Positions 43,595 to 50,725 of a stretch of 64,000 nucleotides of DNA are shown here, in pieces. The stretch's first letter is position 1. Each line of letters starts with the position of its first letter. This DNA comes from Methanomassiliicoccales archaeon LGM-RCC1. GTDB taxonomy: Archaea > Thermoplasmatota > Thermoplasmata > Methanomassiliicoccales > Methanomethylophilaceae. The notes under the pieces were generated by a model that did not search any database, was not told where the DNA came from, and saw only the letters and a list, made by a program, of their open reading frames with translations. A program made the translations under genes and the position numbers. Location of the stretch: assembly GCA_030168575.1 (NCBI GenBank), contig CP115555.1, positions 620,001-684,000 on the forward strand. The letters run 5' to 3'.

Positions 43595-44551
43595 ATGTTC
43601 GTCAAGGCAGTGAAGCTATATGAGAAGGGCTTCATGACACAGCCCTTCGCCATGGGCGGAGAGGACGGGATGGAGGCATTCGATGCCTCCGTCAGGTACA
43701 GGTCGTCACTTCAGAACTATCTGATCGATACGGGAGACGAGGTCATACTCGTCGATACCGGAATGCCCCTGGAGACACCGGACGCGGTCCCTGATGAGAA
43801 CACCATAATCTACATGGGTTCGCGCATCAAGGATTACGTATCCGCACTGAAGGATATCGGATATGAGCCGGAGCAGGTCACGCGCATACTTATCACACAC
43901 AAGCATGACGATCACTCCGGTGAGATCAGGAGCTTCCCCAACGCAAAGGTGTATATCGCCCCTGAGGACGCCGATGCGCTGGGCCTCCAGGGGGACAACA
44001 TCATCCGTGTGGACTACGATGACGGCCCGTACCATAACTTCCCCGCATGCAAGAAGATCACAGACGGGGTCTACTTCGTGGAGGCCAAGGGCCATACCAA
44101 AGGCAACAGCATCGTCATCGTCGAGGACGGTGACGAGTACTACATGATCCATGGCGACATAACTTACACCGACGAGGCCCTCTACGCCAACAAGCTGTCG
44201 GTGGTGTTCGAGGATCTGGAGGCCTCAAGGAGGACCTTGGACAACGTGGTGGAGTTCATTAGCAACAATAAGACCATCTACCTGTCCACCCACACCCCTC
44301 TCGGCCCTGAGAATCTGGAGAACCACTACGTGATCGATCTGGCCAACCCGCCCGAGACCATACCCGTTGGGGAAATCGTGATCAAGACGGCCACCGGGAA
44401 GTACATCTGCACCGTATGCGGTTATGTGTACGATCCCGCGGTCGGCGACCCCAGCAGGGACATCCCTCCCGGAACGCCGTTCGAGGATCTTCCAGATGAT
44501 TGGCGCTGTCCGAGATGCAAGGCCGTTAAAACGAAATTCAACAAAGCATGA
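43595..44551 (+). CDS. Metallo-beta-lactamase fold hydrolase fused to rubredoxin
   Basis: 318 aa. The N-terminal MBL domain has T-H102-K-H104-D-D106-H107 (THKHDDHSG), [12 protein letters not shown] and [12 protein letters not shown], giving a binuclear metal site. Residues 270-318 form a rubredoxin with C272-X2-C275 and C305-X2-C308 ([17 protein letters not shown]). The flavodoxin domain of true flavodiiron proteins is absent. The rubredoxin would feed electrons to the metal site or to a partner. Part of the ferritin operon. Confidence 0.85.
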
Positions 44552-44654: not shown

Positions 44655-44706
44655 AATAGATTTTCTCGAGAAAATCTGGATGAAGAAGTGGCGGGCCTGA
44701 AGGGAT
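44655..44706. repeat. Left attachment-site copy (att) of the tRNA-Lys element
   Basis: 52 bases that align without gaps to 50615-50666 with 43 identities. The last 21 bases (44686-44706) are identical and correspond to the 3' end of tRNA-Lys (CCA, acceptor strand and start of the T stem). A perfect 18-base palindrome GATTTTCTCGAGAAAATC (44659-44676) lies next to the core and may be a recombinase site. The tRNA similarity stops at 44706, so this is a tRNA fragment, not a tRNA gene. Confidence 0.85.
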
Positions 44707-44801: not shown

Positions 44802-45968
44802 TTGACATCGATTCCAAAATCACTCGAACCCTTAGAGGGACGTCCGAAGATCACCCTTTCTGATGTCCTCAGGAACATCCCTGTCATCAAGCGCCGTGCG
44901 AAGGAGTCCGGCTGTTGGCCCTTCGACACTGATGAATTTATAATCAAGCTGCTCAAAGGGGAAATGTCATTGGACGATCCTCTCCTTCAGGCGATACTTC
45001 TTGATTGGATTGAGAGTGAGGACTATAACAAATTTCTTAATCTCGAGACAGGCGAGTTCATATACGCCAAATCCGCCAAGAGGGGCAATGTGGTTTATGC
45101 GACGAGGAAGACCAAGAAGAGGGATGCCCTGAAGAATGCCATAGAGGGCAAGGTCTTCGATTACCCTGTCAAGGGATTCCGCAACAGGAGGATGACGAGG
45201 CTACTGCTATGTACGGTCAACTTCGATAGATCCCTGTTCACCTGCGAGGAGGCCTGGGCGGCTCTACGTTCCACCCCCATCGAAGGCCTCGACTACACAT
45301 ACAACGTCATAAACAAATTGAACGCCAACATCAGCAAGATTTTCGGCAAGCATGGTACGCTGACCTCGAAAGAGGCGCAGTCATCAGGCTATCCGGCACC
45401 GCATCTGATCTTCATCCTCGATGAACCCGTCATGGTGCAGCGTCATGTGGGGAGGGACGGGAAGGTCTCCTGGAGGATCTGCGACCAGAGGATACTGGAC
45501 AGGATCGGCAAAGGGCCCCTTATGAGGAAGCTCAGCAAGACGGATTATCGCAAGGCCATCCAGATGAACCCTGTGTGGAAGCACGGTTTCATCGATTTCG
45601 AGGGAATAGCCTCCGAGGAAGGGTCCAGATCAGGAAGGGATGCGATAACGTATCCGTTCAAGTATCTGGTCAAGTGCCTCACGCAGGACGGTTCCCATTC
45701 TATCAGGGATATACCGGACATCAATTCCGTGAAGGACAAGGACATGCGCACCATACTCTTCACGCATCTCGGTAACAAATGCTTCAGGACCAGGGATGTG
45801 TCGTTCGGCAAGGGTTTCAAGGACCGTATCGGCATGCTCCCGGAGGAGAAGCCCGACGAACCCAGCCAATGGAAGCGCATCAGGACCCTGACGGGCTACG
45901 AATACGATTTCATCAAGGCCGTCGAAGAACAGAGGGCGATCATCAAGCTTAGGTGCACCATCAGGTAG
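44802..45968 (+). CDS. Element-encoded protein, possible replication initiator
   Basis: 388 aa if started at TTG 44802; no ATG fits and the start is uncertain. Not clearly recognised. The middle part (about 130-235) has RRMTRLLLCTVNFDRSLF, a stretch NANISKIFGKHGTL and SSGYPAPHLIFILD, a pattern reminiscent of Rep/relaxase-like proteins (strand, helix, GYPH-H-like strand). The usual HUH pair is not complete, so this is only a suggestion. An inverted repeat TCAAGCC/GGCTTGA (44748-44754, 44762-44768) lies just upstream. It ends in TAG, one of only two stops of that kind among intact genes in the window. Confidence 0.5.
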   Translation: MTSIPKSLEPLEGRPKITLSDVLRNIPVIKRRAKESGCWPFDTDEFIIKLLKGEMSLDDPLLQAILLDWIESEDYNKFLNLETGEFIYAKSAKRGNVVYATRKTKKRDALKNAIEGKVFDYPVKGFRNRRMTRLLLCTVNFDRSLFTCEEAWAALRSTPIEGLDYTYNVINKLNANISKIFGKHGTLTSKEAQSSGYPAPHLIFILDEPVMVQRHVGRDGKVSWRICDQRILDRIGKGPLMRKLSKTDYRKAIQMNPVWKHGFIDFEGIASEEGSRSGRDAITYPFKYLVKCLTQDGSHSIRDIPDINSVKDKDMRTILFTHLGNKCFRTRDVSFGKGFKDRIGMLPEEKPDEPSQWKRIRTLTGYEYDFIKAVEEQRAIIKLRCTIR

Positions 45969-46000
45969 CAGAACGGTGCCCCCGCACGACAGGAGGTCGC

Positions 46001-46879
46001 ATGAGCGGGTATCCGTTCTCGGACGGCATCGACGATTACGTCGGATCATTGAATGCGACGGAAGCATCCAAGGATTCCGCCAGACGTCGCCTCGGCAATA
46101 TCGGGAGGGTGTTCCATCAGCTGAAGACGGAGCACAAGATCCCCTCGGACAACCCTTCCAGGATATCCGTGGACGGTGTCAGGGCATTCATCGAAAGACG
46201 CAGATCCGATGGAGTGTCGGCCAGCACTGTCAGGAGGGACCTCCAGTATCTCGACGGTTATCTAGCCTTCCACGACAACGATGCAGCGGAGATAATCCTC
46301 ACGGAGGAGTCGGATCGTTCCAAGGATTCATCGAAAGCGGCATTGGACAGGATCCTCAGGATCATCTCTGGACCCGACAAGCTTCCCAACGACCTGCTCA
46401 GAGCCTTCTCTTTCGTGATACTAGTCATAGTCCTCGGTACGACCCCCGACCGTATCCGCAGATCTGTTCTGGTCCATGGTCTGGCCAGCCAGAGCATCAT
46501 GGATTACAATCTGGAATTCATAGGCGCTGACAACATATTGCATAACATCAAGCTGGATTTCAGGAGATTGCCTATAATCGAGAGATACCTCAAGGATCTG
46601 GTCTACAGGAATCAGCTGACAACAAGAACACCTATGTTCCCTTCCAAGGATCCTCTTTTCAGATTCATAGGTCCAGATGATATGCACAGGCTCAAACAGA
46701 TAGTCCAGAAACATATCGGTATAGAATTCGATTATCGCATCTGTCAGCGTCTGTTCAGGGAGAGGGAGTCATCCGACGATCCGGAGTACCATGAACAATC
46801 TCTGGGGAACCATGTGCCCGACATCCACTACTCCTATCCTAAGAAAGGGGTACTCGGAAGGATCAGGGGCATCTTTTGA
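46001..46879 (+). CDS. Divergent tyrosine recombinase (integrase-like)
   Basis: 292 aa from ATG 46001 behind a perfect AGGAGGT. Residues 1-90 match the SAM-like core-binding domain of phage integrases (DYVGSLNATEASKDSARRRL, VRAFIERRRSDGVSASTVRR). The catalytic half has a box-I-like arginine (LGTTPDRIRRS), an RLFRE segment where HxxR is expected, LGNH in place of LGHS, and a terminal HYSYPK that could supply the tyrosine. The first histidine is missing, so activity is uncertain. The position beside the att site supports an integrase role. Confidence 0.6.
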   Translation: MSGYPFSDGIDDYVGSLNATEASKDSARRRLGNIGRVFHQLKTEHKIPSDNPSRISVDGVRAFIERRRSDGVSASTVRRDLQYLDGYLAFHDNDAAEIILTEESDRSKDSSKAALDRILRIISGPDKLPNDLLRAFSFVILVIVLGTTPDRIRRSVLVHGLASQSIMDYNLEFIGADNILHNIKLDFRRLPIIERYLKDLVYRNQLTTRTPMFPSKDPLFRFIGPDDMHRLKQIVQKHIGIEFDYRICQRLFRERESSDDPEYHEQSLGNHVPDIHYSYPKKGVLGRIRGIF

Positions 46880-47221: not shown

Positions 47222-47824
47222 TCAATTCGCCATCCTTTTGAATCCGATATCCACACCATATTTTTCTTTCAATACCCATCTGAGGCCTGTGTTTATCATG
47301 CCGTTAGACATATTGTTTGCATCCTCCAGAGTTATGATGTTGCTGGCTAGACAGTTCAAGAACATATGTACAAGGCCTGATATAATAACGGACAGGGTCT
47401 CTGTGGTCTGCGTACTGGGCTCATCCATATCTATCTGAAGGTCATTGAACAGCATATTCTCGATATAGGAACGATATCTCAAAGAGAACTCTGGATCCTT
47501 ATATTCCATGACCAATGGAATCAGATATCTTTCATTCTCAATGAACAGCTCCTGGAAGCGCGGTATGAACGATTGGAAATCACGATTCTCATTGTTACTG
47601 GTCTCGAATAGGTCGCGGATTAGATCCATCTGTTTTTGTTTTATGGAGTCCAGAACCTCATCGATGTAATTGTAGTAATAGTAGAATGTGGAGCGTGTGA
47701 TGCCTGCATTTCTGCAGACGTCTTCTACGGTCACTCTCTTTTTCTCCTCCGAGGTGTAGAGCTCCCAGAACGATTCCTGAATGCTCACCATTGTTCTGTT
47801 CCTTGCCGCTTCGTAGATTCCCAT
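47222..47824 (-). CDS. TetR-family regulator of the peptide cassette
   Basis: 200 aa. The N-terminal helix-turn-helix at about 30-57 is TVEDVCRNAGITRSTFYYYY; the rest is an all-helical ligand-binding domain of TetR length. Divergent from the precursor peptide gene, with about 110 AT-rich bases between them, so it most likely controls the peptide operon and itself. Ligand unknown. Confidence 0.85.
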   Translation of the reverse strand: MGIYEAARNRTMVSIQESFWELYTSEEKKRVTVEDVCRNAGITRSTFYYYYNYIDEVLDSIKQKQMDLIRDLFETSNNENRDFQSFIPRFQELFIENERYLIPLVMEYKDPEFSLRYRSYIENMLFNDLQIDMDEPSTQTTETLSVIISGLVHMFLNCLASNIITLEDANNMSNGMINTGLRWVLKEKYGVDIGFKRMAN

Positions 47825-47888
47825 TTGTTATTCTCCAATTTCTTACATAATGATTGATTTCGTAGTATTTTATTTAAACTGAATGATA

Positions 47889-47897
47889 TTATATTAA
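47889..47897 (+). promoter_or_regulatory. TATA box of the peptide operon
   Basis: TTATATTAA in a very AT-rich intergenic stretch shared with the divergent TetR gene; about 40 bases before ATG 47934, which is preceded by CGAGGT. Confidence 0.5.
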
Positions 47898-47933
47898 ATA
47901 TTAAACAAAAAATTGAATTCCGAGGTCATAAAA

Positions 47934-48104
47934 ATGGCACTTAAGAATCTATTTGGAACGGATTCCCCTTCATCGGCTTGCGGCAGTGCATGCGGTTCAG
48001 GGGACAAGAAGAGATCCTCTGCGTGCGGAAGTGCTTGTGGCTCGGGCGACAAGAAGAGATCTTCCGCCTGTGGCAGCGCATGCGGTTCAGGGGACAAGAA
48101 ATGA
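47934..48104 (+). CDS. Cys-repeat RiPP precursor peptide (ACGX-repeat type)
   Basis: 56 aa. A 12-residue leader (MALKNLFGTDSP) precedes three nearly perfect 15-residue repeats SSACGSACGSGDKKR, the last ending at KK. Six cysteines sit at 16, 20, 31, 35, 46 and 50, always in ACG, spaced 4 then 11. The lysine/arginine clusters between units could be protease sites releasing three equal peptides. Followed directly by a radical SAM/SPASM gene, so the cysteines or neighbouring carbons are probably crosslinked (thioether formation is typical of SPASM enzymes; inference here). The pattern fits what I recall as the ACGX-repeat peptide family, defined computationally. Confidence 0.85.
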   Translation: MALKNLFGTDSPSSACGSACGSGDKKRSSACGSACGSGDKKRSSACGSACGSGDKK

Positions 48105-48111
48105 ATTAAAC

Positions 48112-48132
48112 GGCCCTCTGAATATGGGGGCC
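48112..48132 (+). terminator. Hairpin between precursor and maturase genes
   Basis: GGCCCTC/GGGGGCC seven-pair stem (one G.U) with a TGAATAT loop, in the 41 bases between the two genes. Probably a partial terminator that gives more precursor than enzyme, as is usual for RiPP operons. Confidence 0.55.
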
Positions 48133-48145
48133 ACTTTCCGATATC

Positions 48146-49186
48146 ATGGATTATTTCGCTTTCCAATTGCACATCACCGAAGCCTGTGATCAGCGTTGCA
48201 AACATTGCTATATCTACGCTCTAGGCAGCCATGCTGAATTCAGGGAGATGTCTCTGAAGGATATGAGGACGGTGCTGGATAATATCAAAGAGTTCTGCAG
48301 GAAGGCCAACCGCCTTCCCTACCTGTATATAACCGGCGGAGATCCGATACTCCACCCCGATTTCTGGTCATTGGCGGAAATTCTGAGGTCCGAAGAGATT
48401 CGCTTTGCGATATTGGGCAACCCGTTCCATCTGACCGAGGATGTATGCAGGAGACTGAAAGATTGCGGTTGTTGCAAGTATCAGCTCTCCCTCGATGGTT
48501 TGAAAGAGACACATGATGAAATCAGACAGCCCGGCTCATATGATTCCACGATGGATGCAATACCGCTTCTGAAGAGAGCGGGGATAGATGTCGCCATCAT
48601 GACCACGGTCTCCAAATGGAATGTGAAAGAGATCCCTGAACTCATCGATGAGGTTGTAAAGAACAAGGCCGACATCTTTGCCTTTGCCCGCTACTGTCCT
48701 TCGTTGATGGATAGGGATACAACTTGCGATCCCTTGGAATACCGGGATATGATGGATAAGTGCTGGAAGAAGTTCGAGCAGTACAAGGATTCGGATACAT
48801 ATTTCAATCTGAAGGATCACCTCTGGACCTTGTACAGGTATGAAATCGGGGATTTCGATCCCAAAGAGTTCCCTGATGACGAATATGTCTATGACGGATG
48901 CAACTGCGGCAATTCCCACCTCACCATCCTGTCCGATGGTGCCGTATATGCATGCAGGAGGATGGAGAGCAAGGTTGGTAACGCATTGACAGATGACCTA
49001 TATGATCTGTTCACTGGACCCAAAATGGATGTATACAGAGTGTATGAGAATTTTGAGAAATGCTCCAAGTGCGAGTTACTCCGTTTCTGCAGAGGCTGTC
49101 CGGCCGTTGCCAAGGGATATCATGGGAACATGTATGCGGCCGATCCCCAATGCTGGAAGGTGATTCGGATCGATGAGGGCAGTTAA
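48146..49186 (+). CDS. Radical SAM/SPASM peptide maturase
   Basis: 346 aa. The radical SAM cluster motif C14-X3-C18-X2-C21 (ACDQRCKHCY) is at the very N-terminus, and the GGEP-like motif is TGGDPILHPDF. The C-terminal SPASM region is Cys-rich: DGCNCGNSH, YACRR, KCSKCELLRFCRGCP and DPQCW, enough for auxiliary [4Fe-4S] clusters. SPASM enzymes modify peptides encoded next to them. The immediate upstream Cys-repeat peptide is the evident substrate. Start ATG 48146 lacks a strong ribosome site. Confidence 0.9.
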   Translation: MDYFAFQLHITEACDQRCKHCYIYALGSHAEFREMSLKDMRTVLDNIKEFCRKANRLPYLYITGGDPILHPDFWSLAEILRSEEIRFAILGNPFHLTEDVCRRLKDCGCCKYQLSLDGLKETHDEIRQPGSYDSTMDAIPLLKRAGIDVAIMTTVSKWNVKEIPELIDEVVKNKADIFAFARYCPSLMDRDTTCDPLEYRDMMDKCWKKFEQYKDSDTYFNLKDHLWTLYRYEIGDFDPKEFPDDEYVYDGCNCGNSHLTILSDGAVYACRRMESKVGNALTDDLYDLFTGPKMDVYRVYENFEKCSKCELLRFCRGCPAVAKGYHGNMYAADPQCWKVIRIDEGS

Positions 49187-50123
49187 GATAGACAGGATAA
49201 CCCCGGCTGACGATGTGTCGCTGACGGAAGTTCCGATACCTTCTGTACGTTCGGGATGGGTTCTGGTCAAGGTCAAGGCTTTCGGGATGAACCATTCCGA
49301 GAAGATCCTGAGATTGGGGGAGATCGAAGCCGATTACATTTCCAGACCTGTGATCCCTGGTATCGAGTGCGTAGGCGAGGTAGAGGATCCTTCTGATACC
49401 GCTCTGAAGAAAGGGGACAAGGTCATCGCGATGATGGGCGGAATGGGACGCAACTTCGATGGCAGCTATGCAGAGTATGCATTGCTCCCGATACACCACA
49501 TCTTCAAAGTGGAGACGGACCTTCCGTGGGACGAATTAGCTTCTATCCCCGAAACATATCTTACCGCATGGGGATCTTTGTTCGATTGTCTGCAGCTGAA
49601 GAAAGGAGAGACCTTACTGATCCGCGGAGCGACCTGCGCTTTAGGATACGCAGCAATCGATATTGCGAAAGCATTGGGGTGCAAGATCATAGGGACGACC
49701 CATCGTGAAAGCAAACTCGGGCTTCTGAAAGGAATCGACGAAGCGGTCCTAGATGACGGAGATCTGTCTGGTAAAGGCCTGATGGTTGACAAGGTCTTGG
49801 ACCTTGTGGGCCCCAAGAGTATTCTGGACTCATTACGTACGGTGAAGAAGGGGGGCATTGTCTGCGATACGGGAATTCTCGGTGGTGTTTTCGAAATGAA
49901 CGGTTTTGATCCCATCAAAGATATCCCCAACGGGGTTTATCTCACCGGGTATTTCAGCAACTATCCCGCCCAGGATATGGTGGATAGTATCTTCCGGTTC
50001 ATTCGTGATTACGATCTTCACCCGACATACGCGGCGCGTTTTGATTTTGAGGATATCCGTGATGCCTGCAAAACATTGGACGAGGGCAGAACGAACGGAA
50101 AGATCGTCGTCGTCGTGAAATGA
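49173..50123 (+). CDS. MDR-family oxidoreductase (quinone reductase-like) of the peptide cassette
   Basis: 316 aa starting inside the end of the maturase gene (14-base overlap), so translationally coupled. GroES-like N-terminus (SGWVLVKVKAFGMNHSEKIL, PVIPGIECVGEV) and a Rossmann domain with GATCALGYAAIDIAKALG for NAD(P)H. The structural and catalytic zinc residues of alcohol dehydrogenases are absent, as in quinone reductases. It may reduce or release the modified peptide, or supply electrons. Its conserved place in the cassette is inferred from overlap only. Confidence 0.85.
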   Translation: MRAVKIDRITPADDVSLTEVPIPSVRSGWVLVKVKAFGMNHSEKILRLGEIEADYISRPVIPGIECVGEVEDPSDTALKKGDKVIAMMGGMGRNFDGSYAEYALLPIHHIFKVETDLPWDELASIPETYLTAWGSLFDCLQLKKGETLLIRGATCALGYAAIDIAKALGCKIIGTTHRESKLGLLKGIDEAVLDDGDLSGKGLMVDKVLDLVGPKSILDSLRTVKKGGIVCDTGILGGVFEMNGFDPIKDIPNGVYLTGYFSNYPAQDMVDSIFRFIRDYDLHPTYAARFDFEDIRDACKTLDEGRTNGKIVVVVK

Positions 50124-50181: not shown

Positions 50182-50430
50182 TTATCGGAGGCCGTTAATG
50201 AGGGTCAGAGTATGCACCTTTCTACCGCGATTCGACCATACGATGTCAAGAAAAACTTTCGACCCGTTGTTCAGCCGTTGATATGACAGTATGCATCGTT
50301 CTGAATCGGCGGAATGAGGTTTCTTGTATGCGTTCAGGTGCGCCTGAGTTTCTGGACTTATCGGATTCTCCTCCATATACCTGTCAGCGCTGTCGAAGAC
50401 CTCGTCCAAGGTCATGTCGTCATGGGGCAT
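50182..50430 (-). CDS. Possible small hypothetical protein at the right end of the element
   Basis: 82 aa from ATG 50430, acidic N-terminal half (MTLDEVFDSADRYMEENPISP) and a strand-rich end (KVFLDIVWSNRGRKVHTLTLI). The composition looks protein-like, but an open frame on the other strand (50314-50532) competes, and neither has a clear ribosome site. Uncertain. Confidence 0.3.
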   Translation of the reverse strand: MPHDDMTLDEVFDSADRYMEENPISPETQAHLNAYKKPHSADSERCILSYQRLNNGSKVFLDIVWSNRGRKVHTLTLINGLR

Positions 50431-50614
50431 GCTTTCGTCGCGACCACTCAGGGCGAGTACGAGGACAAGGATCTGCATGTGGCGTCCCGTGATATGCAGA
50501 AGTATTGGGATGAGAAGGAGGCTGCAGAGTGAGCCTTTTGCACTCGAACCTTACCATAGGTTCGGGTGCGATATCACTCGACATAGAGCGCGAGGGTATA
50601 GAAATCTCTGAATC

Positions 50615-50666
50615 AATAGAATTTTCCGAGTAGATCTGGGTAGACAAGTGGCGGGCCTGAAGGGAT
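50615..50666. repeat. Right attachment-site copy (att) at tRNA-Lys
   Basis: Direct-repeat partner of 44655-44706 (43 of 52 identical; 21-base identical core at 50646-50666). The core runs from just past the CCA end into the T stem of tRNA-Lys, so integration restores the tRNA. Confidence 0.85.
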
Positions 50667-50725
50667 TCGAACCCTTGGCACCTCGATTAAGAGTCGAGTG
50701 CTCCACCTAGCTGAGCTACAGGCCC
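50649..50725 (-). tRNA. tRNA-Lys (anticodon CTT)
   Basis: Minus-strand cloverleaf: acceptor GGGCCTG/CAGGCCC, D stem GCTC/GAGC, anticodon stem CTCGA/TCGAG with loop CTCTTAA (anticodon CTT, codon AAG), variable GTGCC, T stem AAGGG/CCCTT with loop TTCGAAT, discriminator G and encoded CCA. No intron. Its 3' end is the target of the integrated element to the left. Confidence 0.95.

Follow-up and report, generated by a model that had tools for sequence, protein, structure and literature searches.

An ACGX-repeat peptide cassette in a tRNA-Lys element of a Methanomassiliicoccales archaeon and its possible role in redox and electrophile stress

The window analysed here is a stretch of 64,000 nucleotides from the genome of Methanomassiliicoccales archaeon LGM-RCC1 (GenBank assembly GCA_030168575.1, contig CP115555.1, positions 620,001 to 684,000). 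It contains a small gene cassette of the ACGX-repeat type, which would make a ribosomally synthesized and post-translationally modified peptide (RiPP). The cassette consists of acgA for a cysteine-rich repeat peptide, acgM for a radical S-adenosylmethionine (SAM)/SPASM enzyme, a gene for a reductase of the medium-chain dehydrogenase/reductase (MDR) superfamily and a divergent regulator gene. It lies between two direct repeats at a tRNA-Lys gene (Table 1).

Peptide and enzyme both exceeded the cut-offs of their NCBIfam models: AcgA matched TIGR04341 with 31.5 bits (cut-off 28) and AcgM matched TIGR04340 with 601.1 bits over the whole protein (cut-off 400). The pair therefore belongs to an already known, computationally named family, and the ACGX cassette proposed in an earlier note on this DNA was confirmed at the level of both models. 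The names acgA and acgM are those used in a Roseburia plasmid record; a paper on a product or role of ACGX, acgA or acgM was not found in the open-licence literature. As in other ACGX systems, the two genes are adjacent (gap of 41 nt), the leader is M-x-L-x-N-like and ACG repeats follow. Bacterial ACGX loci mostly have an HxlR regulator and a nitroreductase, whereas the window cassette is archaeal, resides in a tRNA-Lys element and is combined with a TetR-type regulator and an MDR protein.

Table 1. Features of the ACGX cassette and of the surrounding element (positions in the window)
Feature	Position	Strand	Description
acgA, ACGX-repeat precursor	47934..48104	+	56 aa; three ACGSACGSGDKK units after a 12-residue leader; TIGR04341
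acgM, radical SAM/SPASM maturase	48146..49186	+	346 aa; TIGR04340
MDR-superfamily reductase	49173..50123	+	316 aa; Pfam ADH_N, ADH_zinc_N_2; recurrent acgM partner
TetR-type regulator, divergent from acgA	47222..47824	-	200 aa; predicted fold; homologue near acgM in 12/93 loci
left end repeat	44686..44706	+	21 bp, duplicating the tRNA-Lys 3' end; exact match; related genomes have similar repeats at this tRNA
388-aa open reading frame (ORF), first element gene	44802..45968	+	no NCBIfam, Pfam, PHROGs or PADLOC match at the limits used
308-aa ORF, possible tyrosine-recombinase-like integrase	45953..46879	+	weak matches and position by the end repeats
98-aa ORF	50182..50478	-	no family match (NCBIfam, Pfam, PHROGs, PADLOC); related stretches in G087 and G082
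right end repeat	50646..50666	+	21 bp, tRNA-Lys 3' end
tRNA-Lys (CTT), integration target	50649..50725	-	ARAGORN; Rfam RF00005 68.3 bits for 50652-50725

The AcgA sequence reads MALKNLFGTDSP, followed by two copies of SSACGSACGSGDKKR and one of SSACGSACGSGDKK, the final R being absent from the last unit. A ribosome-site-like GAGGT motif ends 7 nt before the ATG. Pairwise comparison of the units gave 9, 6 and 12 differences in 42 nt, all at third codon positions and with identical residues, and an all-synonymous outcome occurred in 0 of 20,000 random-mutation trials for each unit pair. Since all differences are synonymous, AcgA is a translated peptide under selection and not chance low complexity. 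Four units are present in a genome of the same species (G077; loci L005 and L033), the additional unit being an exact copy of unit 2.

The cassette was compared across 93 acgM loci: 49 from Lachnospiraceae, 25 from Oscillospirales, one each from Hallella and another Clostridia metagenome-assembled genome (MAG), three on plasmids (one of Methanosphaera), 12 from archaea and two broken or partial archaeal ones. The duplicates L134 and L183 and a short Bacteroidales contig (L111) were left out; 49 of 56 Lachnospiraceae and 25 of 27 Oscillospirales places were used, those omitted being mostly low-scoring or partial. The earlier note had named absence of the peptide from all other maturase loci as evidence against its proposal; the proposal withstood this check, as an ORF with at least two [AS]CG motifs was present near acgM at 87 of the 93 loci. 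Precursor statistics were taken from 81 loci, which gave 78 distinct peptides. The script's start-codon rule dropped the other 12, of which 7 have a peptide under the [AS]CG-count rule; conversely, L184 has none under the latter rule and a poor one under that of the precursor statistics. Glycine follows 473 of 480 cysteines in these 78 precursors. Another Cys stands at +4 of 186 CG cysteines, and 254 of the remaining 287 have an acidic residue there (238 Asp, 16 Glu); 61 precursors obey this +4 rule of Cys or acid throughout. The CG was kept and the acid lost in L154 (0 of 6 sites), L130 (1 of 4) and L045 (0 of 7). The maturase gene of L045 is split, while the maturases adjoining the L154 and L130 precursors score 547 and 594 bits. 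The repeat regions are composed mostly of Ala, Gly, Cys, Lys, Ser, Pro, Glu and Asp; hydrophobic residues are rare apart from Ala, and an aromatic residue follows the first CG in only three precursors.

AcgM has the CX3CX2C motif (C14/C18/C21) and eight SPASM-type cysteines between C252 and C336, conserved in 88 to 89 of 89 proteins. The second-best NCBIfam model was SbtM (TIGR04082), a thio(seleno)oxazole maturase with Cys-directed chemistry, at 183.6 bits (next model 126), and it was matched at 1e-20 by 44 of 44 AcgM family members scanned. Several heme-type models also matched all 44 at this level, with best E-values weaker than those of SbtM. The SbtM cut-off (350 bits) was not reached, AcgM scoring about half of it with only profile positions 199-505 of 516 aligned, and AcgA differs in having no internal selenocysteine codon. 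According to the available part of the source, SbtM converts Cys to a thiooxazole with loss of four hydrogens (PMC11002830).

A ranthipeptide-like thioether between Cys and Asp or Glu is the main chemical alternative. In that case, each C-X3-C-X3-D unit would contain one or two rings, each with a mass loss of 2 Da, the value predicted for each crosslink in the earlier note. Such Cys-X3-Asp/Glu links are made by PapB, as described in the accessible text of PMC9413430, and the spacing of the PapA/PapB system (freyrasin, a ranthipeptide), whose enzyme likewise is a radical SAM/SPASM protein, recurs at many AcgA sites through the +4 acids. However, AcgM reached only 69.9 bits with the PapB model (NF047865; cut-off 340), which 2 of 44 family members matched at 1e-20. 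The structure model of AcgM (predicted local distance difference test, pLDDT, 90) agreed best with 5wgg, which we take to be CteB (Z 26.5, root-mean-square deviation 3.2, 307 aligned residues). It aligned from residue 92 of 5wgg on and had nothing corresponding to the first 90 residues of that structure; a fused N-terminal part resembling a RiPP recognition element (RRE) is thus missing from AcgM. CteB is called a ranthipeptide synthase in the part of PMC11002830 available. The Z scores of the sulfatase maturase anSME (26.1), ChlB (26.1) and SuiB (25.0) are so close that the fold gives no verdict between a ranthipeptide enzyme and other SPASM enzymes.

AcgM presumably acts on the ACG cysteines, with Cys as the modified residue. 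L154, L130 and L045 retain the CG with the acid at +4 largely or wholly missing, and this tilts the assignment to a reaction centred on Cys-Gly. An SbtM-like thiooxazole is our tentative choice, slightly favoured over the thioether, which we regard as rather unlikely; a chemistry other than these two is a serious contender.

Three other leads were set aside. The resemblance to viperin (PADLOC pVip, a profile given without a curated cut-off) covers the radical SAM core only, with 62 bits at residues 7-182 compared to the whole-length ACGX match. A mycofactocin-like cofactor system was discarded, as MftR reached 24.6 of 224.9 bits, the radical SAM model 80.8 of 265 and the NDMA-dependent dehydrogenase 47 of 440. 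Candidate SbtM relatives in the same archaeal order (L016-L020), all radical SAM proteins with lengths of 479-507 aa, were dropped as well, since L016, the one scanned, matched heme/d1-type models best (332 bits; SbtM 94).

The gene downstream of acgM overlaps it by 14 nt. Its product is nearest to the PIG3/quinone-oxidoreductase type (TIGR02824, 146 bits), below the cut-off of 297. For the divergent regulator, the Pfam TetR_N score of 20.9 was just under the gathering score of 24; its structure model (pLDDT 78) matched TetR regulators, with 3kkc as the best and sole match below 0.001 (Foldseek E 5.5e-4), so the TetR gene claimed beside the peptide was upheld by the predicted fold despite the low domain score. 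A scan for promoters and terminators gave signals at or under the shuffled expectation.

To survey the neighbourhoods, profiles of recurrent neighbours were run against about 6 kb on each side of acgM where the contig permitted. Chaining of operons by gene calls had left 29 of the 93 loci without a downstream gene, partly due to wrong start codons, and counts were therefore based on profiles; the 39 further operon genes mentioned below come from the chaining and are subject to the same losses. Little can be made of absences at L010 and several MAG contigs, whose flanks are short. Within 1 kb downstream of acgM, in the 90 loci whose downstream sequence extends to 1.2 kb or more, an MDR gene alone was found in 31, a nitroreductase gene alone in 45 and both in one; nine have only a protein of PNPOx plus two 4Fe-4S domains and four have none of the three. 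Within about 6 kb the same loci divide into 33 with MDR only, 45 with nitroreductase only, two with both and 10 with neither. The two reductases thus avoid each other (Fisher p 1.9e-13, for related loci that are not fully independent), as expected of interchangeable partners. In 33 loci the divergence of the MDR protein tracks that of AcgM (Mantel r 0.64, 0 of 2000 permutations). The coupling to an oxidoreductase, which had seemed new in this archaeon, is accordingly widespread, with MDR or nitroreductase following acgM in 77 of 90 loci. Regulator genes were found within 6 kb at 82 of 89 loci: 71 have HxlR, 12 have TetR and one locus has both. Of the TetR-MDR pair suggested for comparison, the MDR gene is recurrent and TetR is the rarer regulator. 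An N-terminal Cys is retained in 44 of 47 HxlR proteins. In B. subtilis, this Cys has a redox-sensing role in HypR and YodB. HxlR-nitroreductase pairs are familiar from electrophile stress.

Many bacterial acgM loci also encode enzymes of reversible ADP-ribosylation; like the HxlR, nitroreductase and Fe-S genes of bacteria, they do not figure in the earlier note. A class-M sirtuin (SirTM) and/or a zinc-macrodomain protein was found near acgM in 46 of 78 bacterial loci, and in 42 of the 68 with at least 4.5 kb downstream. A representative sirtuin matched PDB entry 5a3a, a SIR2 family protein (E 2.1e-74), which we take to be SirTM. The macrodomain representative matched 8rsi (E 1.9e-81) and 5kiv and passed the NCBIfam model for protein-ADP-ribose hydrolase (NF003163, 378 bits, cut-off 272). 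The class-M QG motif is present in 34 of 38 members of the sirtuin cluster and HG in none of the 38; the zinc motif was found in 24 of 26 macrodomains. Among 397 Lachnospiraceae genomes, a zinc-macrodomain (matches of E 1e-40 or better) occurs in 46 of 53 with acgM and in 136 of 344 without it (odds 10, p 5e-11, uncorrected for kinship), and it is adjacent to acgM in at least 15 of 56 places. SirTM/Zn-Macro operons, which combine oxidoreductases with the lipoylated carrier GcvH-L and the ligase for it, have been linked to oxidative stress, as far as the accessible parts of PMC4518038 and PMC11490716 go; the latter states that the targets of such systems outside the GcvH-L operon are unknown. 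A link of SirTM or macrodomains to radical SAM enzymes or ACGX was not found in the open-licence literature searched. The extended operon (GcvH-L, LplA2, OYE, LLM) is similar to many bacterial ACGX loci in combining sirtuin, zinc-macrodomain and oxidoreductases, and its OYE has a counterpart in the old-yellow-enzyme family Oxidored_FMN, matched by 2 of the 39 further operon genes. The difference is that ACGX loci have a repeat peptide and a radical SAM enzyme in place of GcvH-L and LplA2. Neither of these two was among the 25 of 58 Pfam families listed for the 39 genes, a list not based on a search aimed at them. DUF1848 is a further recurrent neighbour (10 of 93 loci, up to 6 kb from acgM; e.g., L047, 11998-12939), several of its genes adjoining SirTM or macrodomain genes.

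Taken together, we favour the interpretation that the ACGX cassette is a horizontally acquired RiPP system which acts inside the cell in redox or electrophile stress, rather than making an antibiotic, and give it a probability of about one half. The TetR protein, replaced by HxlR in most bacteria, would control the divergent acgA-acgM-reductase operon. AcgM would modify the A-C-G cysteines of AcgA in place, giving a soluble peptide with multiple sulfur sites, and the adjacent reductase (MDR here, nitroreductase in most bacteria) would use, reduce or complete the modified peptide. In many bacteria, the SirTM/zinc-macrodomain pair may add a reversible ADP-ribosylation, with which the archaeal version dispenses. 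An intracellular sulfur peptide is favoured because hydrophobic residues are few, KKR between units is rare and neither an exporter nor a peptidase is among the families listed. We infer the retention in the cell, the signals sensed by the regulators and the stress role from this gene context. The ACGX neighbourhood thereby suggests a role that can be tested, given the partner reductase, a kind of regulator often tied to electrophiles and the ADP-ribosylation enzymes of many bacteria. As acgM is common in gut anaerobes and present in methanogens, this would have consequences for stress tolerance in the gut and the rumen.

Several results weigh against this interpretation. Neither MDR nor nitroreductase follows acgM within 1 kb at 13 of the 90 loci, and TetR is limited to nine archaeal and three bacterial loci. 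Neither SirTM nor a macrodomain is near any of 15 archaeal loci, Methanosphaera included (one with only 1 kb of flank), and a zinc-macrodomain was not found in the genome of the window, the sirtuin not having been searched genome-wide; the SirTM/macrodomain half of the argument hence rests on bacteria. Of the 13 archaeal genomes in which acgM sequence is present, 6 encode a zinc-macrodomain at another place. In bacteria, SirTM or macrodomain genes are rarer at MDR loci (8 of 21) than at those without MDR (34 of 47, p 0.014). At 20 macrodomain loci from genomes lacking acgM, HxlR was found 11 times, PNPOx/Fe-S 8 times and nitroreductase once; ACGX therefore looks to be one among the add-ons of a broader module. 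Finally, the frequent acid at +4 is unexplained by a thiooxazole. A more specific version, in which the AcgM-modified peptide is both carrier and target of a second type of SirTM/Zn-macrodomain system, is speculative and on balance improbable. Its sulfur centre would replace lipoyl-GcvH-L, ADP-ribosylation would be the off/on switch, nitroreductase or MDR the electron donor, and the archaeal cassette a stripped mobile form without the switch.

Three further explanations overlap in part with the intracellular stress role. The reductase may be a tailoring enzyme of the RiPP, AcgM making an unsaturated residue which the MDR protein or flavin nitroreductase reduces or oxidises. LanJ enzymes of both the MDR and the flavin type reduce dehydroalanine, and the exchange of the two reductases at the same place resembles unrelated enzymes serving one step. 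However, the loci with PNPOx/4Fe-4S only and the four without any of the three genes downstream, one of which (L154) has an upstream MDR gene, speak against this, and HxlR-nitroreductase pairs already have their place in electrophile stress. We consider tailoring doubtful, at the level of the thioether. A metallophore is less probable still: here ACG thiooxazoles would bind Cu(I) or another soft metal and buffer it like bufferins or bulbicupramide. The proximity to SbtM and the nearly invariant CG agree with this. In the part of PMC12538549 available, a thiooxazole RiPP made by an MNIO enzyme is modified at Cys before Gly, six in three cassettes (bulbicupramide), and binds Cu(I), with no protease gene near. 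The Cys-Gly sites are shared, but bufferins and bulbicupramide are made by MNIO enzymes and not by a radical SAM enzyme; moreover, the SbtM cut-off was missed, and the recurrent neighbours of acgM are reductases, HxlR/TetR and SirTM/macrodomain genes rather than metal transporters or metal regulators.

Secretion is frequent among radical SAM RiPPs, and an exported antimicrobial or signal, cut at basic residues into three identical 14-15-mers, would agree with the three identical units of the window peptide ending in KK(R), but it is the least probable of these explanations, since 4 of 78 distinct precursors have KKR between their units and 18 have any dibasic pair there, K-P-E-E-K-P-A-like linkers are common in Firmicutes, exporters and peptidases are absent from the 25 of 58 Pfam families listed for the 39 operon genes, and the repeats are nearly free of hydrophobics apart from Ala. 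Of the release of three peptides at basic ends proposed earlier, the identical units stand and the cleavage is weakly supported.

In the order of the window's archaeon, acgM above the family cut-off was present in 11 of 147 genomes. The corresponding numbers are 51 of 397 for the family Lachnospiraceae, 25 of 394 for the order of an Oscillibacter MAG and 2 of 295 for that of Hallella. AcgM of the window is 73-76% identical to proteins of Hallella, an Oscillibacter and a Lachnospiraceae MAG. Four plasmid records contain AcgM relatives (98% query coverage, 54-56% identity), two being versions of one Methanosphaera record. In a midpoint-rooted tree of 89 proteins, from which the Methanosphaera copy was left out and in which the archaeal L181 has a long branch, nine archaeal proteins including that of the window group together (94/87). 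They form a group of eleven with a Hallella/Clostridia pair (99/93), inside a larger group with bacterial proteins (100/100). The archaeal distribution requires three changes, at least two of them forced, which fits repeated acquisition of acgM by methanogens from gut bacteria. No relative was found in phages or viral contigs; AcgA gave no tblastn match against plasmids, a search made uninformative by low-complexity filtering, which hides the repeats. Loss is suggested by acgM copies that are broken or partial in two further archaeal genomes (L184 in G016, L185 in G035). On the Methanosphaera plasmid pNP174 (L045, 7667-10018), two annotated genes together represent a split acgM, which is flanked by a Cys-repeat peptide with another core (ACGTEIVSS) and an MDR-type gene; HxlR and PNPOx/Fe-S genes are near and BREX genes lie downstream.

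The location in a tRNA-targeted element, as proposed earlier, was corroborated. The two 21-bp direct repeats match exactly (BLAST E 1.5e-6 within the window) and correspond to the tRNA-Lys 3' end; the 5.96 kb between them hold two element genes, the ACGX cassette and the 98-aa ORF. The second element gene had weak integrase matches only (Phage_int_SAM_1, E 0.0035, below the Pfam gathering score; PHROG integrase, E 0.09). Homologues of the first, with 65-84% identity, lie just inside end repeats in G077, G087, G082 and G081, and the same tRNA in these genomes has at least one further repeat with homologues of the two-gene module. Neither the module nor a second repeat was found in the tRNA-Lys stretches of G073, G076, G078 and G085, one being shorter than 4 kb. 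The acgM cassettes of G077 and G087 are located past the repeat bounding the tRNA-proximal element, and the stretch examined showed no outer repeat of their own. Elements thus accumulate at this site, probably in tandem, and the cassette of the window forms bracketed cargo. Just outside the element, the gene at 43595-44551 encodes a protein with a metallo-beta-lactamase fold and a rubredoxin fused to its C-terminus.

A second RiPP-like locus is present in the same genome outside the window (L002, G000:C1:434865-438896). It contains two ORFs of about 92-96 aa, with an alike leader-like first half and a CPxCGC...CxGCG second half, together with a radical SAM/SPASM protein of 464 aa from the first Met. 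The start of an ORF downstream resembles, by eye, a C39-peptidase exporter.

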